DNA from: Candidatus Methanogranum gryphiswaldense | GTDB taxonomy: Archaea > Thermoplasmatota > Thermoplasmata > Methanomassiliicoccales > Methanomethylophilaceae | Direction: 5' to 3' | NCBI GenBank assembly: GCA_019262145.1 | Contig: CP076745.1 | Span: 803,093 to 867,092, forward strand | Length of the DNA: 64,000 bases | Shown: piece after piece, positions 49,120 to 61,811 of the stretch | Layout of the letters: every line of letters begins with the position of its first letter | How positions within the stretch are numbered: position 1 is the first letter of the stretch | The notes under the pieces: model-generated | What the model was told of the DNA's origin: nothing | Database searches by the model: none | The model's input: only the letters and a program-made list of their open reading frames with translations | Translations under genes and position numbers: made by a program

Positions 49120-49220
49120 CTTCAAAATCACTAGTCAAATCAATTTGAATTAACGAAACAGATTTATAATGGCCAAATCCTTTTTGTAGTATTGGATGAA
49201 TACTCCAATAAGTGAGAATT

Positions 49221-49775
49221 ATGGAAGAAAAGAATAAGATTATCACATATGCTGTGGTCACCCTTGTTGTAGGTGTATTAATCGGTACAGCGGTAGGTTA
49301 CGCGGTATTCCACGAAGACAAGAATACCGATGATACGTACTATTACTATCTCTATTTTGGTGACAATAGTAGCGATAATGATTGGTACAGCGGAACAGGA
49401 TCCAATGCAGGTGATGCGTTCAGTAATGCAATGGATAAAGCTGGATTTGACTGGGACATAAGTGCATACGGATACATAGGCTCGATAAACGATATCGGTG
49501 AAACATCTGGATGGGCACTATACCAGTACCTTTACTCTGAATGCACATCGGCGGCAGCAGACAACAGTATATTGTATCCTGTCAACGACAGTTACGGATA
49601 TTATGCATCTTCCAACGGATGGAAGGTAATAAATGGATATGATGACGCTTCGATTGACTTCAAACTCTCAGAGATCTCATCATTTGTTTATTTCTTCTCT
49701 GTTTATCCTTCTGATTGGGATCCAGTGACACCATTGGATGATGATGGGTGGATGTCTACAGGGCCATTCAGCTGA
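49221..49775 (+). CDS. Secreted protein with DUF4430-like (transcobalamin C-terminal-like) domain
   Basis: A 184-residue protein with an N-terminal membrane anchor (IITYAVVTLVVGVLIGTAVG, about 6-25) and one extracellular domain. The pattern (YYYLYFGDNSSDNDWYSG, GDAFSNAMDKAGFDWDIS, GWALYQYLYSE, later GWKVINGYDDASIDFKLSE) resembles DUF4430 domains related to the C-terminus of transcobalamin. Relatives of it appear at the N-termini of the next two proteins. AGTGAG six bases upstream supports ATG 49221. A ligand-capture role is inferred. Confidence 0.65.
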   Translation: MEEKNKIITYAVVTLVVGVLIGTAVGYAVFHEDKNTDDTYYYYLYFGDNSSDNDWYSGTGSNAGDAFSNAMDKAGFDWDISAYGYIGSINDIGETSGWALYQYLYSECTSAAADNSILYPVNDSYGYYASSNGWKVINGYDDASIDFKLSEISSFVYFFSVYPSDWDPVTPLDDDGWMSTGPFS

Positions 49776-49859: not shown

Positions 49860-51329
49860 TTGATAGGATTCTTGTCATTGGCCATATTCACAAACTCTCA
49901 TAAATCTGAGATAGATAATGGAAATTCCGTTCCAAAAGAAAATGGTATTAAAATAAAAAAAATGACCAGAATTGCTCGTATAAAAGTATTCCTTACCGTC
50001 ATAATAGTCCTATCTGGAATCTTTGTCACATTTGCGATGAACGGTGTAGGGTCCAATGCATATCAATCTCAAACCGAAGGAATCGTATTGGATTTTGGCA
50101 ATTATGATACTGTTTGGACCGATGCAGATTACAATGAGGTTTCTTCTGCGGTCGATCTTTTAGAATATGCGTGTGACGAAAACGGATATTCCTATACATT
50201 CAACGAAGAGGGTATTCTAACAGAGGTCAACGGAATCTCCAATTCAGACACTGTGATGTGGACACTATGGTATGTTACAAAAGGAAGCACAGAATTTACA
50301 GAATCAGAAAATTATTCCATTGACGCATCGAATTATTCAGGTACTGTTTGGGCATATTGCGAGGACGGCGAAGAACCTGCCGTGATCGTTGATGGTTCTG
50401 GAACATGCATATATGGCTATTCACAAGCCAATAGAATCGTTTCGTTATCGCCTTCAGCTACTGAAATTCTGGGTTCAATGGATGCCATCGATGCAGTTGT
50501 CGGTACCGATTATTATAGTGATTATCCTTCATCCGTTGTAGAAGGGAAAAGTGACGGCAGTATTTCTGTGGTGGGAACGTATACAGACCCTAGTTATGAA
50601 TCGATAATGAAAACATCACCGGACATGGTGATATGTGACAGTTCTCAATATAATCAGATACAAATGACCACTAAGATGCGTACATCTGACATAAATGCAG
50701 TACTTTTGTACGAGGGTGAAGACATCGAGACCATAATCAATAATATATTCATTGTCGGGATTGCAATAGGGTATGGAATCCGTGCCCAGAATGTAGTAAG
50801 CGATCTGGATTATGCTGTTGAAGAGATCGAGGAACTCTTAGAAAATGGAGAATATTCAGACATTGAAACGATGATCTCTCTTTCATCTGATGCTTCGCCT
50901 TATGTGGCTGGCAATTATACCTATGCTGATAACATATTGATCAACGTATGTGGGTTCAACATCTTTCATTCCATGAACGGATGGGTGCATATAAATTCAG
51001 AATACATTTCTGAATACAACCCTTCAGTCATAATAATATATTCATCAGAATATTCTGCAACACAGGCCGATTACGATCTTATGCTGTCCAATCTATCTGC
51101 AGAATGGAAAAGCACAGATGCGTACAAGTCCGGGGAGATCTATTTGTTCGCAGACGAACTTGGCGAAATGGCCCAGCGTGCCGGTCCGAGATTTGCACAA
51201 CTAATGGAAATAACAGCAAGGATATTGCATCCTGATGCCTTCGATGACGGTATAATCATACCGAAATATATTGGCGACAATTATGAGGACTATCTGACGA
51301 TCACAAAGAATCTGGGGTTCGATAGCTGA
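49860..51329 (+). CDS. ABC importer binding protein (BtuF/FecB-like) with N-terminal DUF4430-like domain
   Basis: A 489-residue membrane-anchored protein. After a hydrophobic segment (about 43-62), residues 75-175 form a DUF4430-like domain (IVLDFGNYDTVWTDADYNEV, MWTLWYVTKGSTEF). Residues 185-480 are a class III binding protein (NRIVSLSPSATEILGSMDAI, VVGTDYYSDYP, SPDMVICDSSQYNQ), as in cobamide and siderophore import. A TTG at 49860 has a TATA and a GAGGTG site upstream. ATG 49962 is the alternative and gives a more usual signal anchor. ATGA overlap with the next gene. Confidence 0.82.
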   Translation: MIGFLSLAIFTNSHKSEIDNGNSVPKENGIKIKKMTRIARIKVFLTVIIVLSGIFVTFAMNGVGSNAYQSQTEGIVLDFGNYDTVWTDADYNEVSSAVDLLEYACDENGYSYTFNEEGILTEVNGISNSDTVMWTLWYVTKGSTEFTESENYSIDASNYSGTVWAYCEDGEEPAVIVDGSGTCIYGYSQANRIVSLSPSATEILGSMDAIDAVVGTDYYSDYPSSVVEGKSDGSISVVGTYTDPSYESIMKTSPDMVICDSSQYNQIQMTTKMRTSDINAVLLYEGEDIETIINNIFIVGIAIGYGIRAQNVVSDLDYAVEEIEELLENGEYSDIETMISLSSDASPYVAGNYTYADNILINVCGFNIFHSMNGWVHINSEYISEYNPSVIIIYSSEYSATQADYDLMLSNLSAEWKSTDAYKSGEIYLFADELGEMAQRAGPRFAQLMEITARILHPDAFDDGIIIPKYIGDNYEDYLTITKNLGFDS

Positions 51330-54286
51330 TGCAGTTCAAGGGTACATCGGTAGGATGTGTCATTCCTATTATTGTCGTAGGCATGTTCATCTTATCTTCT
51401 TTTGCAGTTTTAGCGTCCGGAGACGCAGCTCAATCAGATAATACTGAATTATTATTGGATGAGGGAAACGGAGATACCAATTGGATGGATCTCGTCTCAT
51501 CAAGCACATATGCTTCTACTATCGAAAACACACTTAACGATGCAGGATATATATGCACGATATCAAATTCGGTTATATCTGTTGAAGGAAAAACTTCAGA
51601 GATAATCGGTTCTAGCACCAGTTCGGGTGGAACATTCATTGTATCGGGAACTACCGGAATTACAGTTACATCATATTGGTTTGCATATATTTGGAATGAA
51701 GATACATTAGAATGGGAAACAATAACCGATCTATCTGAAAATTACAATTCCGAATATCTGGCAGTCGGATTTTATCCCGTTGGATATACTCCTGCAGAAA
51801 CTCCTGAAAATCCATCTTCTTGGACGTGCATTGCAGGGGATGCTGAGAATTCAGGTACACAAACCGCCAATCTATCTTCAGAAACAGGTACTATTGCCTG
51901 GTCCTACAAGAGCGTAGATGGTGTTACCGGAGTATATTCATCCACATTGGTTGCAGGAGGATTTGCCTTTGTTAAGTATGGTTATGCTTCTTCTTCGAAT
52001 GTTGTGGTCGTATGTTATGATCTTAATTCCGGAGAAGATGTTTGGGAATTCTGGTATAAATGCACATATTACGAGACTACAACAGATCTTGTGGTAGGCG
52101 ATTATCTATTTGTGCAATCTTCCAATGGACAGATCTATAAATTTAATTGGAAGGAAGGCCCAGGAGAAGACAACTCGAATGTCAAGACATTCAATGGAGA
52201 ATCTTGGGGCAGCAGTACAGCGATACCTGATGACACGGGAGCTGAATTGATAGGAGCATTTTACGGTGATGGCGCAGGTTCCATGGTATGCGATTCGGGA
52301 GCAATATATGTTGCATGTTCGAACGGAATGATCTACTGTTTCGATCTGGATCTGAATCTATTATGGTCTTACCAGACATCGGGGCATGGATATTACACTT
52401 CACCGACGGTATATGATGATTACGTCTCTATTGGTATGTATGATGGACATCTCTACATACTGAGTAAAACAACTGGCAGTCTAATTGTCGATGAGGTGGT
52501 TTACACCACTACCTACAAGGGCAGTGTTTATGGACAGGTCTCAGCACCATGTTTCTTGAAAGAAGGTGACAGTTACATCATCTTTGCATCATATAGTGAT
52601 GGAAGGGGAATGAGTTCTCAAACATTTGGGATCGTTGTATACGAATTCGATGGAAATGAACTTACTGAGATCTCTGATTACGTGGATGTTTTTGGCGGAG
52701 GGATATCAACATATCTAAGTCCTTATACCGATTCTAATTTTAATGGAATTTATTTTATGGCCGCTAACGGCCTCTATAAAATGGACACATCTGGGAACTA
52801 TGAGCTGCTTAACAGTACGTTCTCTGAATTGAAAAGGACCAAATCATCACTTGTCATTGTCAATGATGAATACATTTACATTGCGTGTTACAACGCCAAC
52901 TATGGAATGTATAAACTCGATATGAATGGAAAGATACTCGGCTCATTCCAATCCTCCTTTACTTCTTACTGTATGTGTCCTGTTACCGTGGTCGATGGAA
53001 TGTTCATATCCGGTAACGATGGCGGGGTTTTTGCTGTAAGTGGAGCATTTAACGAATATATACCACCGACAAATGATGACAAGATGGAATTATGGGAAAA
53101 GATTGCCATTGCCATTGCCATATTCTTGTTACTTATAGCTTTGATCTGGGCAGTTTTAAGATATGTAGTAAAATGGGAAAAACCATTTGCACATGTTAAA
53201 GGATCAATTTTACATTTCTTCTTCGGAGAAGATTATACACATAATACCCGGAACAAACATCGTCTTTGGGCGGTCATGCTAATAGGAATATCGCTGACAC
53301 TAGTTGCTGCCATAGCTTCATTATGCATAGGATCCAACACAACAATGTCGATCGGTGAAATGTTCAGTGCGTTGATATCTTCGATACAAAAAGGTGGACA
53401 CAACCTGACATATAATGAGATGTTGATATACAATTCAAGATTGCCCCGTATCCTGGCAGCAATTGGAGTCGGAATTGGTTTATCCGTTGCAGGTGCCATG
53501 TATCAGGCAATAATAAGGAATCCATTGGTGGACCCTTACATAATGGGTGTATCTGCTGGGGCAGGAACAGCGGCTATAGCGGTAATAGCATTCGATTTCA
53601 CATTCTTAGGATTTTTCAGTTCTCAAGATATATATCTGACCGCATTTGCCGCCATAATAGGCGGTCTTGTAGCATTTGCATTTACTATGATACTTGCAGA
53701 AAAAGCTGGCGGGACATCGATAAATTATGTATTGGCAGGAATAATCATAGGATTGGTCTTTTCTGCGATACAAACGCTTTTGATGATATTCGCTGGAGCT
53801 CATATATCTGGAGCTTTGACCTGGTTATACGGCTCTTTTGCATTGATAACATGGGACAAGGTCTGGTTGATATTGGTGCCTGCGATCACAATATCCTTGA
53901 TCCCATTGATCTGGGCCAAAGAATTCAATCTTGTGCTCTTGGGTGAAGAACAGGCCAAACAGATGGGATTGAATGTCAAAAGATTCAACAGAGTGATGCT
54001 TATAGCGGCGTCCGTGCTAACCTCTTTCTGTGTGGCCTTCGTCGGTATAATAGGTTTCGTAGGATTGGTTATACCGCATCTATGCCGTATGATACTGGGC
54101 GGGGATCACAGATTGGTACTTCCCGCATCTATGGCATTCGGCGGTGCTTTGATGATATTTGCAGATCTGCTGTCAAGAGTACTATTGGTAGGATATGAAC
54201 TTCCCGTAGGAGCGATAACCACCATAATCGGTGTGCCAGTATTCGCATATCTACTAGTAAAAAGAGGTAAGATGTATGATGGATGA
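51329..54286 (+). CDS. FecCD/BtuC permease fused to secreted DUF4430-like and beta-propeller domains
   Basis: A 985-residue chimera. After a signal anchor (about 9-30) comes a DUF4430-like domain (about 38-165: LLLDEGNGDTNWMD, TSYWFAYIWNEDTLEWET). A PQQ-type beta-propeller follows, about 170-580, with blades such as WTCIAGDAENSGTQTA, AIYVACSNGMIYCFDLDLNL and YVSIGMYDGHLYILS. A membrane helix (about 590-612) then leads into a complete FecCD permease (about 645-985: RLPRILAAIGVGIGLSVAGA). Ordinary permeases of this family have about 330 residues and no ectodomain. The permease part is duplicated downstream. Confidence 0.88.
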   Translation: MQFKGTSVGCVIPIIVVGMFILSSFAVLASGDAAQSDNTELLLDEGNGDTNWMDLVSSSTYASTIENTLNDAGYICTISNSVISVEGKTSEIIGSSTSSGGTFIVSGTTGITVTSYWFAYIWNEDTLEWETITDLSENYNSEYLAVGFYPVGYTPAETPENPSSWTCIAGDAENSGTQTANLSSETGTIAWSYKSVDGVTGVYSSTLVAGGFAFVKYGYASSSNVVVVCYDLNSGEDVWEFWYKCTYYETTTDLVVGDYLFVQSSNGQIYKFNWKEGPGEDNSNVKTFNGESWGSSTAIPDDTGAELIGAFYGDGAGSMVCDSGAIYVACSNGMIYCFDLDLNLLWSYQTSGHGYYTSPTVYDDYVSIGMYDGHLYILSKTTGSLIVDEVVYTTTYKGSVYGQVSAPCFLKEGDSYIIFASYSDGRGMSSQTFGIVVYEFDGNELTEISDYVDVFGGGISTYLSPYTDSNFNGIYFMAANGLYKMDTSGNYELLNSTFSELKRTKSSLVIVNDEYIYIACYNANYGMYKLDMNGKILGSFQSSFTSYCMCPVTVVDGMFISGNDGGVFAVSGAFNEYIPPTNDDKMELWEKIAIAIAIFLLLIALIWAVLRYVVKWEKPFAHVKGSILHFFFGEDYTHNTRNKHRLWAVMLIGISLTLVAAIASLCIGSNTTMSIGEMFSALISSIQKGGHNLTYNEMLIYNSRLPRILAAIGVGIGLSVAGAMYQAIIRNPLVDPYIMGVSAGAGTAAIAVIAFDFTFLGFFSSQDIYLTAFAAIIGGLVAFAFTMILAEKAGGTSINYVLAGIIIGLVFSAIQTLLMIFAGAHISGALTWLYGSFALITWDKVWLILVPAITISLIPLIWAKEFNLVLLGEEQAKQMGLNVKRFNRVMLIAASVLTSFCVAFVGIIGFVGLVIPHLCRMILGGDHRLVLPASMAFGGALMIFADLLSRVLLVGYELPVGAITTIIGVPVFAYLLVKRGKMYDG

Positions 54287-54475
54287 CGTCCAATCGTTAA
54301 AGATCAAAGGCCTTAACAAGGCATACGAATACAGATATCATACAGTAATGGAAGTTTCCTATTTCTTACAACTTGAGGAGATAGCGGAAGTTATTGAACC
54401 CAATGATTTTAGAAATGCCACAATTCCAAAATTTATAAGCAAGATATACGAACCTATGGGGGGAAGGGCCCTATG
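53111..54475 (+). repeat. Tandem duplication, copy 1 (permease + ATPase start)
   Basis: Copy 1 of a 1365-base unit covering the last membrane-plus-permease part of the fusion gene and the first 66 codons of an ATPase gene. All landmarks recur in copy 2 at exactly +1365: a 68-base identical block (53483-53550 = 54848-54915), GAACAGGCC (53948 versus 55313) and the ATPase start (54276 versus 55641). Confidence 0.85.
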
Positions 54476-54476
54476 A
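54276..54476 (+). pseudogene. Truncated, degenerate ABC ATPase fragment
   Basis: A 66-residue frame that aligns with the first 66 residues of the intact ATPase at 55641: KIKGLNKAYEYRYHTVMEVS versus EIKGLNKVYEDGYHAVKDVS. The Walker A region is destroyed (GPNGCGKTT has become EPNDFRNAT) and nothing beyond it remains. The frame is still open, starts with the same 11-base overlap with its permease, and its stop overlaps the next permease start (ATGA). It therefore cannot hydrolyse ATP and may persist only as a translational bridge. Confidence 0.82.
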
Positions 54477-55651
54477 TCTGGACATGGTTGATATTAGCAG
54501 TTATCTTTATCGTTATACTCTATGTCATATCATACATATTCAGGAAGAATTATTGGAACATTAAGGAAAGGTCATCAAAATGGTTCAATGGGGATTCAGA
54601 TTATCATTCTGATTCAAAGAGACGCCGTATAAAGATAATGATCTCTGTGGGGATTGTCGTTTTATTGGTTGCATTCATTGCGGCCCTATGTATTGGACCT
54701 ACAAAGATACTGTCTGTTCCAGATATGTTCTCCGCTCTGATATCAGCGATATCAAAAGGTGGACAAAATCTTACATCTGATGAGATGCTAGTATATGATT
54801 CCAGACTTCCACGCACCCTTGCTGCCATTGGCGTTGGGATCGGGCTGTCCGTTGCAGGTGCCATGTATCAGGCAATAATAAGGAATCCATTGGTGGACCC
54901 TTACATAATGGGTGTGTCTGCAGGAGCAGGAACAGCGGCCATAGCGGTAATAGCATTCGATTTCACATTCTTCGGATTATTTGCTCAACATTCGATATAC
55001 CTTACAGCATTCACAGCAATAGTAGGCGGTCTTGTAGCATTTGCATGCACCATGATACTTGCAGAAAAGGCTGGCGGAACCACAAACAGTTATGTCCTTT
55101 CTGGAGTCGTCATAGGAATGATATTCTCGGCCATACAAACAATAATGATGGTTTTTGCGGGAACACAGGTGACAAGTGCATTGCTATGGTTATTCGGATC
55201 GTTCTCCAACATAACCTGGAGTCAAGTATGGTTGATGATCATACCTATTTTGGTAATGTCAATAATTTGCTTCCGTTGGGCTAAAGAGTTCAATCTTGTT
55301 CTTCTGGGTGATGAACAGGCCAAACAGATGGGATTGAACGCCAAGAGATTCAACAGGGTCATGCTAATAGTGGCATCTGTACTGACCTCTTTCTGTGTGG
55401 CCTTCGTTGGTATAATAGGTTTCGTAGGATTGGTTATACCACATCTATGCCGTATGATACTGGGCGGAGACCACAGGCTGGTACTTCCCGCATCTATGGC
55501 ATTCGGTGGCGCATTAGTGGTATTCACGGATATTGTCTCCAGAACAATTCTTCCAGGTCAAGAATTACCAGTGGGCGCCATAACTACTCTTATAGGTATT
55601 CCAGTATTCGCTTATCTATTGATTAAAAGGGGGAAAATGTATGAAGGATGA
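54473..55651 (+). CDS. FecCD/BtuC-family ABC permease
   Basis: A 392-residue permease with one extra N-terminal helix (residues 2-22), a charged linker and a full FecCD domain from about 60 (RLPRTLAAIGVGIGLSVAGA, NPLVDPYIMGVSAGAGTA, GLVIPHLCRMILGGDHRLVL). The extra helix is homologous to the linker helix of the upstream fusion protein, showing that this gene arose from its 3' part. With the ATPase at 55641 it forms a BtuCD/FecCD-type importer; it may pair with the fusion permease as a heterodimer. It overlaps the ATPase gene by 11 bases. Confidence 0.92.
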   Translation: MIWTWLILAVIFIVILYVISYIFRKNYWNIKERSSKWFNGDSDYHSDSKRRRIKIMISVGIVVLLVAFIAALCIGPTKILSVPDMFSALISAISKGGQNLTSDEMLVYDSRLPRTLAAIGVGIGLSVAGAMYQAIIRNPLVDPYIMGVSAGAGTAAIAVIAFDFTFFGLFAQHSIYLTAFTAIVGGLVAFACTMILAEKAGGTTNSYVLSGVVIGMIFSAIQTIMMVFAGTQVTSALLWLFGSFSNITWSQVWLMIIPILVMSIICFRWAKEFNLVLLGDEQAKQMGLNAKRFNRVMLIVASVLTSFCVAFVGIIGFVGLVIPHLCRMILGGDHRLVLPASMAFGGALVVFTDIVSRTILPGQELPVGAITTLIGIPVFAYLLIKRGKMYEG

Positions 55652-55840
55652 TATCCCATTGTTAGAGATCAAAGGCCTGAACAAAGTATACGAAGACGGA
55701 TATCATGCCGTAAAGGATGTTTCCTATTCTTTACAACCTGGATTGATTGTAGGGCTAATAGGTCCGAATGGTTGTGGTAAAACAACGATGATGAAATGCA
55801 TTAACAGGATGCATAACCCTACATCTGGAGAGATCCTCAT
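54476..55840 (+). repeat. Tandem duplication, copy 2 (permease + ATPase start)
   Basis: Copy 2 of the 1365-base unit, starting at the junction where the ATPase remnant ends and the new permease start codon lies. Copy 2 keeps the intact ATPase. No net insertion or deletion separates the copies over the permease. Confidence 0.82.
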
Positions 55841-56447
55841 TGACGGTGAATCCGTACTGAACAAAACACCATCAGAAGTTGCGAAATTGGTTTCCAACGT
55901 ACCTGCGGAATTGAAGGCATCCTTCGGATTGACGGTCTTTGAAACTGTGATGCTTGGAAGATATCCACATCTTCAGAACATATGGTGGGAGACGCACGAG
56001 GACGAATCGATGGTGATCGATGCTCTCAAGAAATTCGGAGTGTATCATTTACAGAACCGTTCATTGAATATGCTCTCGTCGGGAGAAAGACAGAGAGTGC
56101 TCATCGCCAAGGCCTATGTACAAAATCCCAGACTGATGCTTGTGGACGAACCGACATCCCACCTAGATATGAAATATAAATTGGATGTCATGGAATACCT
56201 GAGAGCAATGGTAAAACAAGATATGACCGTTCTTGTAGCCGAACACGACATCTCCCTTATGGCCAGATACTGTGATCTTTGCATAATCATGAAGAAAGGA
56301 GAATTGGTCACAATTGGGAATCCCAAAGAAGTCATCACAGAAAAGTTAATGCAGGAAGTATACGAGGTAAGTGCTTCTGTCGGATTCGATCAGGATGGGG
56401 AACTTTTCGTATTACCAAAGAGGTATACAGGTAAACACAATCTTTGA
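55641..56447 (+). CDS. ABC importer ATPase (BtuD/FecE-like)
   Basis: A 268-residue ATPase of the cobamide/siderophore importer group. Walker A is GPNGCGKTT (about 42-50), the signature LSSGERQRV (about 148-156), Walker B LMLVDEPTSHLD (about 169-180), with the switch His in VAEHDISLM. It is the only intact ATPase of the cluster, so it must serve both the fused permease and the second permease. Substrate specificity, corrinoid or iron chelate, is not shown by this subunit. Confidence 0.93.
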   Translation: MKDDIPLLEIKGLNKVYEDGYHAVKDVSYSLQPGLIVGLIGPNGCGKTTMMKCINRMHNPTSGEILIDGESVLNKTPSEVAKLVSNVPAELKASFGLTVFETVMLGRYPHLQNIWWETHEDESMVIDALKKFGVYHLQNRSLNMLSSGERQRVLIAKAYVQNPRLMLVDEPTSHLDMKYKLDVMEYLRAMVKQDMTVLVAEHDISLMARYCDLCIIMKKGELVTIGNPKEVITEKLMQEVYEVSASVGFDQDGELFVLPKRYTGKHNL

Positions 56448-56456
56448 ACATTATTT

Positions 56457-57713
56457 TCAGTATATTATGTAAAAATATCCAACGCAGATCAGCAATGTTA
56501 TAAATGATACTGGCAATCCAATTTTTAATGCTTGCCAAAAATTCAATTTTATATCGTATTTCTCCGATTCCTCAGCCACTATGATATTAGCCGCTGCACC
56601 AATGAGCGTTGCATTACCGGCTAATGTTGAGGATGCGGCCAAAACAAGCCAGAACATCTCTTGAGATGGTATCATATTACCTATCAACATCACTGCTGGA
56701 ACATTACTGATAAGATTGGATAACACCGCTGAGAATGCAGCTATTCCGAGTATGCTTGGTGTTTCTCCTTCACCAAAACCAGGGAATAAAGATGCAATTT
56801 CATCTATCAGCCCAGTACTTACCACACCCCCCATCAATATGAAAAGACCTACAAAGAACAATATTATGGACCAATCTACACGTTTTACCATCCAAACCGC
56901 ATTGCCTATTCCCTTCGTAACTCCAGCAATTAGAGCAACGATCCCAGAGGCCAATGCAATAATGTATATGGGCAAACCTAACGGATCTGATAGCGCAAAC
57001 AATACTACTGTTATTGTGAGTAGACCGAGCATAAAGATCAATCTGGGTCTATCAATTTTAACAGTATCATCATTGTTTATTTCTTTGTATTTTACCTCTT
57101 CATTGATGTCCTTTTTAAAGAAGAAGATTATGATCAATATCGCGACTGTTAATGCAATAATGGCCAAAGGTATTGTTTTAATAGAAAATTCCAAAAAACC
57201 TATTCCAGCCTTTGTTGCGATATAAGCATTCTGCGGATTGCCTACTGCCGTTGCAACACTGCCAATATTTGAAGATATGAAAAGACCGACAAGATAAGGT
57301 ATCGGATTAGCTTTTAATGAACGACAACACTTTATTACAACTGGTGTCAATAGTAAAACGACAGCATCATTAAGCATTATAGCTGATAAAAATGCAGATA
57401 AAAGCATTAAAGATACTAGGAATTTTATATGAGAGGGATTACCTGCGATCAATTTATGAACGATTACCTCAAAGAATCCAGCAAGTTCAAGACCTGCAAC
57501 AAGCAACATCATTCCAAACAAAAGAAGAAGAAGTTCATAATTGATGTATAACGGAATATCACTAAAACTGACAAGACCCAGAACCAACATGGCCGCTCCG
57601 CCAATAAGAGCTATTCCTGCACGCCCGATCTTGGTGCCTGGTATCTTATGTATGGCAATCAATGCATATGTCACTAAAAACACTAGTAGGGCAAGCAGGC
57701 ATTCGATGGTCAT
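56457..57713 (-). CDS. SLC13/ArsB-NhaD-type anion or ion transporter
   Basis: A 418-residue membrane protein with about 11 helices. Landmarks of the ArsB/CitM-like ion transporter superfamily are LSAFLSAIMLNDAVVLLLTP (about 110-129), NIGSVATAVGNPQNAYIATK and, in the second half, LSNLISNVPAVMLIGNMIP. Substrates in the family range from arsenite to dicarboxylates and sodium/proton exchange; nothing here decides. GAGGG upstream supports the ATG at 57713 over one six codons earlier. It is divergent from the MarR operon. Confidence 0.85.
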   Translation of the reverse strand: MTIECLLALLVFLVTYALIAIHKIPGTKIGRAGIALIGGAAMLVLGLVSFSDIPLYINYELLLLLFGMMLLVAGLELAGFFEVIVHKLIAGNPSHIKFLVSLMLLSAFLSAIMLNDAVVLLLTPVVIKCCRSLKANPIPYLVGLFISSNIGSVATAVGNPQNAYIATKAGIGFLEFSIKTIPLAIIALTVAILIIIFFFKKDINEEVKYKEINNDDTVKIDRPRLIFMLGLLTITVVLFALSDPLGLPIYIIALASGIVALIAGVTKGIGNAVWMVKRVDWSIILFFVGLFILMGGVVSTGLIDEIASLFPGFGEGETPSILGIAAFSAVLSNLISNVPAVMLIGNMIPSQEMFWLVLAASSTLAGNATLIGAAANIIVAEESEKYDIKLNFWQALKIGLPVSFITLLICVGYFYIIY

Positions 57714-57787
57714 TCTACCCTCATTCAGCATTATCCCTTTATTAGTTTATCCCATGACTAAAAATATGAAAATGTGATTTTGGCAGT

Positions 57788-58234
57788 ATGCAGGTTCCTC
57801 CGAATATCCATGCGATGGTTGCGCCAAGAGCAATAAAGATGTACATCAACAAAAGGATGAATCAAAAAATGATTGGACTGGGACTTACTGCATCGACTGT
57901 ACCTTTTCTATTTGAATTAGAAAAAAATGAAGGCACAAGTCTTAAAGAAATCACGGCGCACCTGAGTGTTGATAAAGCACTCACAACGAGAACAATTAGA
58001 CAGTTAATAGACAAGGGATTTGCTGAAGATATAAGTGAAAATCACCGTTCGTGTAAGATCGTATTGACCTCCAAAGGTCGCGATACAGTCAAAGAAATAA
58101 ACACGTATGTTATTGACGTGCATAACGATGTCTTCACATACATCTCAGAAGAAGAATTCCGGACCATGATGATCGTCATGGAAAAGGTCTATCGTAGAAT
58201 TTGTGAAAAAGAAAAGGACCTCGAATCAAAATGA
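57788..58234 (+). CDS. MarR-family transcriptional regulator
   Basis: A 148-residue winged HTH regulator: GLTASTVPFLFELEKNEG (about 33-50), recognition helix region SVDKALTTRTIRQLIDKGFA (about 60-79) and the wing with CKIVLTSKGRDTV. It is the first gene of an operon with two ABC exporter half-transporters, the usual arrangement for a drug-responsive repressor controlling efflux. ACTAAAAATA about 27 bases upstream is a TATA candidate. The ATGA overlap with the next gene shows coupling. Confidence 0.9.
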   Translation: MQVPPNIHAMVAPRAIKMYINKRMNQKMIGLGLTASTVPFLFELEKNEGTSLKEITAHLSVDKALTTRTIRQLIDKGFAEDISENHRSCKIVLTSKGRDTVKEINTYVIDVHNDVFTYISEEEFRTMMIVMEKVYRRICEKEKDLESK

Positions 58235-59985
58235 TACTAAAATATCTGAAGGCCACTGAATGGTGTCTTGTAGCCATATGTGTATTTTTAATTTTCATAC
58301 AGGTATATTTTGATCTTGAAATACCCGCCTACATGTCATCTATCACCACAATAATATCGACTGGTGGTACTACAGACGAGGTCCTACATGAAGGACTTGG
58401 GATGATAGCATGTGCATTTGGAAGTTTGATTTCTGCCATAATCACAGTTTACATTGCTGCATACATCGCTGCATCCCTTTCCATGAGACTCCGTGAGTTA
58501 CAATTCAAAAATGTGCTTTCATACTCAACCAAAGAGATAAATAAATTTTCAATGGCAAGTCTGATAACTCGTTCAACAAATGATGTCAATCAGATCCAAC
58601 TTGTTGTTGCTCTAGGTCTGCAGGTAATGATCAAAGCACCTATATTGGCGGTATGGGCAATAATCAAGATAGCAAACAAAAGTTGGCAATGGAGTGCTGC
58701 TACAGCGGTTGCAATAATCGTTTTAATGTTGATCATCTCGATATTCATGATATTTGTAATACCTCGTTTCAAGAAAGTCCAATGGTTAACTGATAAACTT
58801 AACCGTGTAACGGGTGAGAACCTATCCGGTGTGAGGGTGGTACGCGCATACAACGCTGAGGATTATCAGGAAAATAAGTTTGATAAAGCAAACGAAGAAC
58901 TTACTTCCAACAATCTATTTACTGGTCATTCCATGGCCTTTTTGATTCCCAGTATGAGCTTGATAATGAGTTTGCTCTCGTTATCCGTATATTGGATCGG
59001 TGCGATCCTGATAAATAATCTTAATGGAGATTATTCGGCACAATTCGTTATATTCACCGATATGATCGTATTTTCATCATATGCTATGCAGATTGTAATG
59101 GCATTCATAATGACGGTCTTTGTCTTTATGTTCCTTCCTCGTGCGATGGTCGCATCTAAACGTATACAAGAGGTTATAAACACAGAATCTTCAATAAAAG
59201 GAGGCAACGTCACAGAAAGTCCTACTGGAATGGAAGGCGAAATAACATTCAAAAACGTGTCATTCAAATATGTGGATTCTGCAGACTATGTTTTAAAAGA
59301 TATAAATCTTCAAATAAAAAAGGGCGAAACTGTCGCATTCATCGGTTCTACAGGCAGTGGAAAAAGTACGATTCTGAATCTTGTACTACGTTTTTACGAT
59401 GTAACAGAAGGACAGATCTTGATCGACGGCGTGGATATCCGTGAGTATACATTAGAAACACTCCATAAAAAAATGGGATATGTTCCACAAAGAGCTGTTT
59501 TATTCACAGGTACAGTCGATTCTAATGTAAGGTATGGCGATAACTCGGACATTCGTACGGAAGAGGAAGTCAAAAGAGCCATAGCCATAGCTCAAGGAAA
59601 AGAATTTGTAGAAAAGATGAACGGACAATATCAAAGCGAGATCTCTCGTGGAGGTACCAACATATCAGGTGGACAGAAACAACGTCTTTCTATTGCACGT
59701 GCCATATGTAAAAAGCCTGAATTCTACTTATTCGATGATTCTTTCTCTGCTCTGGATTATAAAACGGATCGTGTTCTAAGAGATAATTTGAAAAAAGAAA
59801 CCAACGGCGTTACGAGTTTGATCGTGGCTCAAAGGATCGGCACAATAATGGAAGCCGATCAAATTGTGGTTCTTGATAACGGACACATAATCGGAGTAGG
59901 AAAACATAAGGACCTACTGCATAATTGTTCTGTTTATCACGATATTGCATCCTCACAACTTTCAGAGGAGGAATTGGGACTATGA
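58231..59985 (+). CDS. ABC multidrug exporter half-transporter A
   Basis: A 584-residue type IV exporter with six membrane helices (about 1-310) followed by a nucleotide-binding domain: Walker A GSTGSGKST (about 373-381), signature NISGGQKQRLSIARA, Walker B FYLFDDSFSALD. The residue after Walker B is Asp-Ser rather than the usual Glu, so this site may be the degenerate, non-catalytic one of a heterodimer with the next protein. Such pairs export lipids, drugs or peptides. Confidence 0.92.
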   Translation: MILKYLKATEWCLVAICVFLIFIQVYFDLEIPAYMSSITTIISTGGTTDEVLHEGLGMIACAFGSLISAIITVYIAAYIAASLSMRLRELQFKNVLSYSTKEINKFSMASLITRSTNDVNQIQLVVALGLQVMIKAPILAVWAIIKIANKSWQWSAATAVAIIVLMLIISIFMIFVIPRFKKVQWLTDKLNRVTGENLSGVRVVRAYNAEDYQENKFDKANEELTSNNLFTGHSMAFLIPSMSLIMSLLSLSVYWIGAILINNLNGDYSAQFVIFTDMIVFSSYAMQIVMAFIMTVFVFMFLPRAMVASKRIQEVINTESSIKGGNVTESPTGMEGEITFKNVSFKYVDSADYVLKDINLQIKKGETVAFIGSTGSGKSTILNLVLRFYDVTEGQILIDGVDIREYTLETLHKKMGYVPQRAVLFTGTVDSNVRYGDNSDIRTEEEVKRAIAIAQGKEFVEKMNGQYQSEISRGGTNISGGQKQRLSIARAICKKPEFYLFDDSFSALDYKTDRVLRDNLKKETNGVTSLIVAQRIGTIMEADQIVVLDNGHIIGVGKHKDLLHNCSVYHDIASSQLSEEELGL

Positions 59986-61811
59986 GCTCAGATCCAAATG
60001 AAAAGAGAAGAGGCCCAATGATGGGGCCAGGCAATATGGGTATAAAAGAAAAACCCAATAATTTTAGAGATGCCTGGTCCAAATTATTTGCATATCTAGG
60101 TATTTACAAAAGACATGTCATATTTGCAATATTGTTAGCGATATTTGGTACGATTTTAATACTTCTAGGACCAAATATGTTGGGTGAGATAACCGATACG
60201 ATAACCGAGGGCATGACCACCGGTAATATGAACATGGAAAAGATCGTTCATATCGGAATCTTCTTAGTACTAGCATACTCCATTGGAACACTCTTAACAT
60301 TTGCTCAGAACTACATCCTAGCTACAATATCCCAAAGAACAGCAAAAAGACTCCGTACGGACATATCAAAAAAGATCAACAGATTACCATTGAGCTATCT
60401 TGATAGAACCTCAAACGGCGATATACTTAGCCGCGTAACGAATGATGTTGATACCATCGGACAGTCAATGAACATGAGCATAGGCACGCTCGTGACAGCG
60501 GTTACCATGCTCATAGGTTCATTGATCATGATGGCCTATACCAATATGACCATGATGGTCACTGCGGTCCTATCAACCGTATTTGGATTTGGACTTATGA
60601 TATTGATAATCTCTAGATCTCAAAAGTACTTTAACCGTCAACAAAAGAATCTAGGCATGATGAATGGTCATGTCGAAGAAATGTATTCGGCGCATGACAT
60701 CTTGACAGCATACAATGGCGAGAAAAAAGCCACGGATCAATTCGATACAATTAACAAAGACCTTTTCAATAGTGCCTTCAAATCTCAATTCTTCTCTGGT
60801 TTGATGATGCCATTCATGACATTCATCGGTAACTTTGGATATGTGGCTGTTTGTATTGTAGGTGCCGTCCTTGTGATAGATGGTGGCGTATCATTTGGAA
60901 TAATAGTTGCATTCATGATCTATGTACGTTTATTCACACAACCTTTGTCGCAAATTGCCCAAGCATTCACAAGTATGCAATCAGTGGCTGCAGCCTCAGA
61001 ACGCGTATTTGCCTTCCTCAATGAAGAAGAACAAGAAGATGAAAGTGAAAAATCAAAAAAGCTTGAGAACATAAAGGGTGACGTTGAATTTAGAAATGTG
61101 CATTTCGGATATCTTCCGGATAAAGAGGTCATACACGATTTCTCAGTCAAGATATCTGCAGGTCAAAAAATAGCCATTGTTGGACCTACAGGAGCAGGAA
61201 AAACAACCATAGTCAATTTATTGATGCGTTTTTATGAACTCAATAGCGGAAAGATATTGATCGACGGCACATCTATAGAAGAGGTCCCACGCAAAAATGT
61301 ACATGAACAATTTTGCATGGTCTTACAAGACACCTGGCTATTCGATGGGACCATAAAAGAGAACGTTATCTATTGTAAACAAAACATAACTGACAATATG
61401 GTCGAGAATGCTTGCAAAGCTGTAGGCATGCACCATTTTATCATGACATTACCAAACGGGTATGATACTGTTTTAGATGAGAAGATGAGCCTATCAACTG
61501 GACAAAGACAACAACTGACAATAGCCCGCGCTATGATACAGAATTCACCTTTGTTGATACTTGATGAAGCAACAAGTTCGGTCGACACAAGAACAGAAAA
61601 AATAATTCAGGATGCAATGGATGATCTGACAAAAAATAGGACCTCCTTTGTGATCGCCCACCGTTTATCAACTGTAAGAAATTCAGACCTCATATTAGTG
61701 ATGAGGGACGGAAGCATAGTTGAAAAAGGTACACACCAAGAACTTCTTGATAAGAAAGGATTCTACAGTGAACTTTACAACAGCCAATTCGAAGATGTGG
61801 AAATCGCATGA
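59982..61811 (+). CDS. ABC multidrug exporter half-transporter B
   Basis: A 609-residue exporter subunit. A Met- and Gly-rich cytoplasmic start (RRGPMMGPGNMGIKEK) precedes six membrane helices and a nucleotide-binding domain with Walker A GPTGAGKTT (about 400-408), signature LSTGQRQQLTIARA and Walker B LLILDEATSSVD, including the catalytic Glu. It is therefore the active site partner of subunit A. GAGGAGG about ten bases upstream and the ATGA overlap fix the start at 59982. Confidence 0.93.
   Translation: MSSDPNEKRRGPMMGPGNMGIKEKPNNFRDAWSKLFAYLGIYKRHVIFAILLAIFGTILILLGPNMLGEITDTITEGMTTGNMNMEKIVHIGIFLVLAYSIGTLLTFAQNYILATISQRTAKRLRTDISKKINRLPLSYLDRTSNGDILSRVTNDVDTIGQSMNMSIGTLVTAVTMLIGSLIMMAYTNMTMMVTAVLSTVFGFGLMILIISRSQKYFNRQQKNLGMMNGHVEEMYSAHDILTAYNGEKKATDQFDTINKDLFNSAFKSQFFSGLMMPFMTFIGNFGYVAVCIVGAVLVIDGGVSFGIIVAFMIYVRLFTQPLSQIAQAFTSMQSVAAASERVFAFLNEEEQEDESEKSKKLENIKGDVEFRNVHFGYLPDKEVIHDFSVKISAGQKIAIVGPTGAGKTTIVNLLMRFYELNSGKILIDGTSIEEVPRKNVHEQFCMVLQDTWLFDGTIKENVIYCKQNITDNMVENACKAVGMHHFIMTLPNGYDTVLDEKMSLSTGQRQQLTIARAMIQNSPLLILDEATSSVDTRTEKIIQDAMDDLTKNRTSFVIAHRLSTVRNSDLILVMRDGSIVEKGTHQELLDKKGFYSELYNSQFEDVEIA

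Follow-up and report, generated by a model that had tools for sequence, protein, structure and literature searches.

The locus raises the question of whether a complete importer permease and a secreted beta-propeller are truly encoded as one chain and, if they are, what this transporter carries and what the propeller adds to it. The window, i.e., the whole 64,000-nucleotide stretch of DNA analysed, belongs to an archaeal genome of 1.52 Mb in a single contig, whose named relatives belong to the Methanomethylophilaceae and Methanomassiliicoccales. The initial annotation had described a 985-residue protein joining a signal anchor, a DUF4430-like domain, a PQQ-type propeller and a full FecCD permease, and had proposed it as a new importer architecture. 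The features needed to evaluate this proposal are listed below.

49212-49775, plus strand: small secreted protein with an anchor, encoded ahead of the binding protein (transmembrane segment at residues 10-28)
49860-51329, plus strand: substrate-binding protein, BtuF-like (Peripla_BP_2 at residues 193-430, E 1e-25)
50040-50420, plus strand: SLBB/DUF4430-related N-terminal domain of the binding protein (hhalign to DUF4430, 93%)
51329-54286, plus strand: fused propeller-permease protein, 985 aa (open reading frame, Pfam, matches across the order)
51350-51412, plus strand: signal/anchor segment of the fused protein, residues 8-28
51446-51778, plus strand: N-domain of the fused protein, residues ~40-150, beta-grasp-like (AlphaFold2 pLDDT 89.6)
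51890-53041, plus strand: beta-propeller of the fused protein, residues ~188-571 (~8 blades by strand pattern)
53090-53167, plus strand: membrane anchor helix of the fused protein, residues 588-613, between propeller and permease
53294-54262, plus strand: FecCD permease domain of the fused protein, residues 656-978 (Pfam E 7.6e-83)
54240-54375, plus strand: end of the fused gene, then the decayed 5' part of an ATPase gene (81% identity to the intact copy over 136 bases by blastn, E 2e-34)
54473-55651, plus strand: second FecCD permease, bare (Pfam E 4.9e-86), with an extra N-terminal helix at residues 5-23
55641-56447, plus strand: ATPase, BtuD-like (Pfam ABC_tran E 1.2e-32)

The fused gene is a single open frame without interruption. 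Its product starts with a signal segment and a small beta-grasp-like domain, continues with a PQQ_2-type beta-propeller and a membrane anchor, and ends in a complete FecCD permease. The open frame and the Pfam matches thus bear out the signal anchor, PQQ-type propeller and full permease in one chain as originally described. The propeller region (approximately residues 182-425) matched Pfam PQQ_2 (E 1.3e-11) and Beta-prop_ACSF4 (E 2e-14), and the strand pattern suggests about eight blades. In Pfam, the PQQ_2 match denotes a generic repeat only, and BtuG-type sequence was not seen; pqqE is reported to be absent from the order (PMC10804542). In the AlphaFold2 model of the fused chain, pLDDT was mostly above 80 for the N-domain and most of the propeller, and low (50-70) for most of the permease part. 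Foldseek searches with this model returned BtuC (2qi9_A, E 1.3e-13) as the top match, followed by BamB propellers, and the fused permease matched BtuC entries of the PDB by sequence as well as by structure.

The operon runs from the binding protein through the fused gene and the second permease to the ATPase. The TGA of the binding-protein gene and the ATG of the fused gene share one base (TGATG) at 51329, and the last 11 bases of the second-permease frame also lie within the ATPase frame, which confirms the overlapping operon with binding protein and ATPase claimed earlier; the second, bare permease had, however, been overlooked. For the binding protein, the ATG at 49962, just ahead of the membrane anchor, is a likelier start than the listed TTG. 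The ATPase motifs, as read in the sequence, are intact (GPNGCGKTT, LSSGERQR, LMLVDEPTSHLD and AEHD), and its best NCBIfam model by E-value was that of a corrinoid ABC transporter ATPase (204 bits, well short of the cut-off of 537). The docking positions known from Escherichia coli, given here by BtuF and BtuC residue numbers, are conserved. A Glu occupies the BtuF E72 position in 34/34 binding-protein relatives, and the E202 position holds E in 26/34 and D in 7/34 (the docking Glu pair in the window being E247/E381); a Trp is present at the place of BtuF W196 in 33/34. In the fused permease, R704, R707 and R950 are conserved at the positions of BtuC R56, R59 and R295.

A BtuB-like partner is absent from the window operon. 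Beyond the ATPase, the window contains a CitMHS/ArsB-type transporter gene on the opposite strand (56457-57731, minus) and, at 57788-61811 (plus), a MarR regulator gene followed by two overlapping ABC-exporter half genes. These were rejected as partners, because they differ in strand or in likely function and because none of them accompanied the operon in the relatives that were inspected. In many relatives the ATPase is followed by a conserved gene for a protein of about 332 aa, which looks like a tRNA methyltransferase by eye and was judged unrelated to the importer.

Matches to the 985-residue query were obtained in 142 of 147 genomes of the order, a permease match alone being enough to be counted, and the complete fused frame is present in some 50 or more genomes belonging to the family, mostly at 40-54% identity. 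Dozens of matches among these 147 genomes are full-length and colinear, each in one open frame, which is far above chance. For close pairs, dN/dS was 0.07-0.24 in the ectodomain versus 0.03-0.06 in the permease; the fused ectodomain is therefore kept as constrained coding sequence and is held under purifying selection, though it evolves faster than the permease. Versions in which the propeller gene stops just before the permease gene do exist, so that an erroneous assembly or sequencing join of two genes, or a neutral read-through, could be imagined; nevertheless, with some 50 or more independent genomes sharing the frame, a supported fused clade (98/93) in the permease tree and selection acting on the ectodomain, such an origin is vanishingly improbable. 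An assembly artefact was rejected on the same comparative genomes and fused clade. The initial annotation had named separate genes in all close relatives as refuting; the close relatives instead carry the fusion, and the split arrangement is confined to a distinct clade of paralogues. The importer architecture is real in this family.

The permease tree, constructed from 88 permeases, is also informative about how the fusion arose. Besides fused proteins, the fused clade includes the second permeases derived from them and a small number of members that are bare or fragmentary, and most propeller-free permeases linked to corrinoid-salvage (cob) genes branch outside it. In a supported sister group (100/100), most propellers are encoded by a gene of their own, located directly before the permease gene, and these proteins end in a membrane anchor. 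The anchor helix of the fused protein matches the C-terminal anchor of these stand-alone propeller proteins, and the fused form looks like the split arrangement minus the intervening stop. On the tree, the fused state has to change eight times, in part on account of fragments and derived second permeases; the fused copies of L078 and L075, located inside or beside the split clade, point to fusion or splitting more than once. One genome harbours both a split and a fused version of the operon, in divergent orientation within 14 kb (L058:1365-14757).

The second permease is 69% identical to the fused one over residues 601-985 and 77% identical over the 329 permease columns of the tree. Since it is sister to the window's fused subclade (100/92) and its extra N-terminal helix is retained in the window and some relatives, it probably arose from a duplicated fused gene, the ectodomain being lost afterwards. 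The 186-base gap between the fused gene and the second permease contains the decayed ATPase-gene 5' end listed above, which we read as the record of a tandem permease-ATPase duplication. The identity between the two permeases (53339-54286 versus 54722-55651) is patchy, with blocks of very high third-position identity, and these patches suggest gene conversion. In genome G028, both permeases are without ectodomain and adjoin cobS and cobY, a natural ectodomain loss.

Several other variants of the fused gene were observed. An in-frame amber TAG is located at residue 74 in one relative (L039:1867-1869, the same record as G041:C20); the order is known for reading TAG as pyrrolysine, and this codon may encode a genuine residue, mark a broken gene or stem from a sequencing error. 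At L044:9797-13915 the usual permease stop is missing, and the frame extends, out of frame, over the second permease (1372 aa). Fused proteins of greater length (~1060-1410 aa by the open reading frame picked) occur at L067-L074 and L077, with clear added length between the ectodomain matches and the permease in L077 and L072.

Gene neighbourhoods in relatives indicate the substrate. A cbiZ gene was found 3.0-7.4 kb downstream, on the same strand, at 15 of 64 fused loci, whereas fewer than one would be expected by chance (a rough estimate from genome size). In the cob-linked operons, genes for the binding protein, fused permease, ATPase, CobD, CbiB, CbiZ, CobS and CobY follow one another in this order; CobD and CobS adjoin the fused genes of L052, L054 and L049, the first of which additionally has CbiB, a CbiZ/CbiS-like protein and a CobY-like protein. 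Propeller-free permeases of other families or genera (L141-L149 and L158, some of these loci being contig fragments) show the order binding protein, permease and ATPase, followed by a full or partial CobD/CbiB/CbiZ/CobS/CobY set. The window operon itself has no adjoining cob genes. In the permease tree, its fused permease falls into an 11-row subclade (100/96) together with the cob-linked fused gene of L156. The CobD-CbiB-CbiZ-CobS-CobY salvage operon of the window genome lies elsewhere (G000:C1 ~1167195-1172207, corresponding to L163:4195-9208) and, unlike in relatives, has no BtuFCD genes alongside. The other FecCD proteins of this genome are 33-35% identical to the fused permease, and the ones included in the tree branch outside the corrinoid clade. 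Because of the cob operon synteny, the clade placement, the importer-free salvage operon and the position of the other FecCD proteins, the best reading is that the window operon very probably imports corrinoids, in agreement with the substrate that the initial annotation had found most attractive.

The FecCD family includes siderophore and heme systems, and an importer for iron chelates, heme or another metal compound has to be weighed against this reading. Many FecCD systems carry such compounds, among PDB entries the binding protein is closest in sequence to an iron-binding protein (4m7o, E 1e-15; the vitamin B12-binding 5m34 is also related, E 1e-4), and the operon adjoins no cob gene in the window. 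Against these points stand the cob-gene synteny of the orthologous operons and the corrinoid-linked clade placement, the importer missing beside the salvage operon of the same genome, and the presence in that genome of several other FecCD systems, 33-35% identical to the fused permease. An iron or heme substrate, to which the genomic context gives no support, was rejected and is improbable.

The DUF4430 label initially given to the N-domain of the fused protein stood only in part. By Pfam, DUF4430 was matched neither in the window protein nor in 26 relatives at E<=0.1, and a direct search of the window genome gave no match even at E 10; in hhalign, the fused N-domain reached only 5% directly against DUF4430. 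It aligned, however, to the N-domain of the binding protein at 95%, and the binding-protein N-domains (34 relatives) aligned to DUF4430 at 93% (E 3.6e-7), so that the label would hold indirectly, by transitivity through the binding-protein N-domain. Foldseek searches with the N-domain model placed the beta domains of transcobalamin and haptocorrin among the best matches, none of them significant (E 0.3 or worse). The fused N-domain also aligned at 96% to the family of the small secreted protein encoded upstream, kin of which occur upstream of the operon in several relatives; two such upstream small proteins (L097 and L099) pass the DUF4430 cut-off. This small protein is a probable accessory, its membership in the operon being putative.

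Related modules were found attached to other partners. In G008, a member of another family of the order, a 1044-aa chain (L131:484-3618) consists of a propeller, PKD domains, an SLBB-like domain and Peripla_BP_2, and its gene is followed in the operon by permease, ATPase, CobD, CbiB and CbiZ genes. In three further families (L121-L128), a stand-alone N-domain-propeller gene lies, at most loci read, near genes for a DUF4430 protein and a two-domain ATPase; L121, the only annotated one of these loci, additionally encodes a T component of CbiQ type and an S component. The module thus appears to have been swapped among permease, binding protein and ECF transporter, which would be best explained by help in substrate capture.

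On balance, judging from the sequences, the operon would encode a corrinoid importer of the BtuFCD type (type II) whose permease bears a tethered capture domain. The two-part ectodomain, i.e., the SLBB-like domain and the propeller, would be located on the outer side of the permease, held by the propeller's own anchor. The binding protein would dock canonically, with the propeller beside it, tethered by the helix and a short linker. The ectodomain is predicted to bind corrinoid, or the corrinoid-loaded binding protein, just above the pore, to raise the local corrinoid concentration and to pass corrinoid to the docked binding protein, ATP hydrolysis then driving import as in BtuCDF. Since the operon includes a second, bare permease, the two permeases, one with and one without a propeller, most likely pair, which would give one propeller per transporter in the window version, and single-permease operons would carry two. 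Given the propeller-free cob-linked relatives (L142 and L147-L149) and the loss in G028, the propeller is evidently dispensable for import.

More tentatively, and with somewhat less than even confidence, the propeller may be a substrate receptor within the permease chain, delivering corrinoid to the docked binding protein over the pore; it would then be a single-membrane counterpart of BtuG-BtuB, of independent origin and repeatedly re-plugged into permease, binding protein and ECF transporter. Propellers commonly serve as protein-binding scaffolds, and a corrinoid importer whose propeller binds no ligand is an alternative that is unlikely but carries real weight. Such a propeller would be a structural lid or scaffold, serving to dock the anchored binding protein, to keep the complex close to the cell surface or to bind polymers of the envelope. 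This alternative would agree with BamB as the closest fold after BtuC, with the higher dN/dS of the ectodomain relative to the permease, with the existence of relatives without a propeller and with the tethering suggested for extra domains of SLBB proteins (Burroughs et al., PMC1796856). On the other hand, a module that turns up in turn with the permease, the binding protein and the ECF transporter is more readily explained by a role on the ligand side than by docking to a single fixed partner, and the module travels with SLBB-related domains. In transcobalamin, SLBB-related domains bind cobalamin. The fused ectodomain is strongly acidic (67 Asp/Glu versus 18 Lys/Arg), a composition common among secreted proteins, and in this respect it may faintly resemble BtuG2, whose binding face is negatively charged (PMC10404256).

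A family-wide fusion of ectodomain and pore, maintained by selection and repeatedly fused or split, suggests a missing capture step in archaeal B12 uptake, in which the propeller probably helps gut methanogens of one archaeal family to capture scarce B12. Corrinoids are the methyl carriers of these methanogens; their uptake may therefore set a limit on methylotrophic methanogenesis and affect the competition for B12 in the rumen and gut.

Type II importers are understood as bare permeases with a separate binding protein. With E. coli BtuCDF, the present system shares the permease fold, docking residues, binding protein and ATPase; BtuC, however, is bare, whereas the permease here comes after an SLBB-like domain, a propeller and an additional membrane helix, and two different permease genes are present. 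In Methanomassiliicoccales, many BtuC copies in five clades have been reported (Xie 2024, PMC10804542), a survey in which term counts showed that neither a propeller nor a fusion is mentioned. In the open literature, searches for a FecCD-propeller fusion gave no pertinent result, nor did the one on BtuG in archaea. The component parts are of known kinds, and the propeller-permease design of a B12 importer, not found described in the open literature, is a new variant.

The Bacteroides BtuG propeller binds corrinoids and caps their transporter (PMC10404256), and the predicted parallel with it is functional: in both cases a surface propeller would serve corrinoid uptake at the transporter. BtuG is a lipoprotein of its own, with seven blades, that sits on a TonB-dependent transporter of the outer membrane, whereas the present propeller is of PQQ_2 type and part of the importer chain. 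No sequence kinship between the two was found; one relative matched DUF5074 at E 0.099, which was treated as chance. The accessory AztD of the AztABC zinc system (PMC6689063), which came up in a beta-propeller search, is an extracytoplasmic protein that passes substrate to the binding protein of an ABC importer, but it is a separate protein and its substrate is zinc. Finally, Burroughs 2007 (PMC1796856) described SLBB (transcobalamin-like) and propeller proteins in CbiO/CbiQ operons and proposed B12 scavenging, leaving the archaeal case open. Those sets share with ours the pairing of a transcobalamin-like domain with a beta-propeller, and ECF-linked relatives occur here too; they are separate secreted proteins of ECF-type systems, whereas here the module is fused to a BtuFCD permease and salvage genes lie in the operons of relatives. 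Related domains within corrinoid-salvage operons bear on the question raised in 2007, namely whether archaeal transcobalamin-like proteins take part in B12 uptake.
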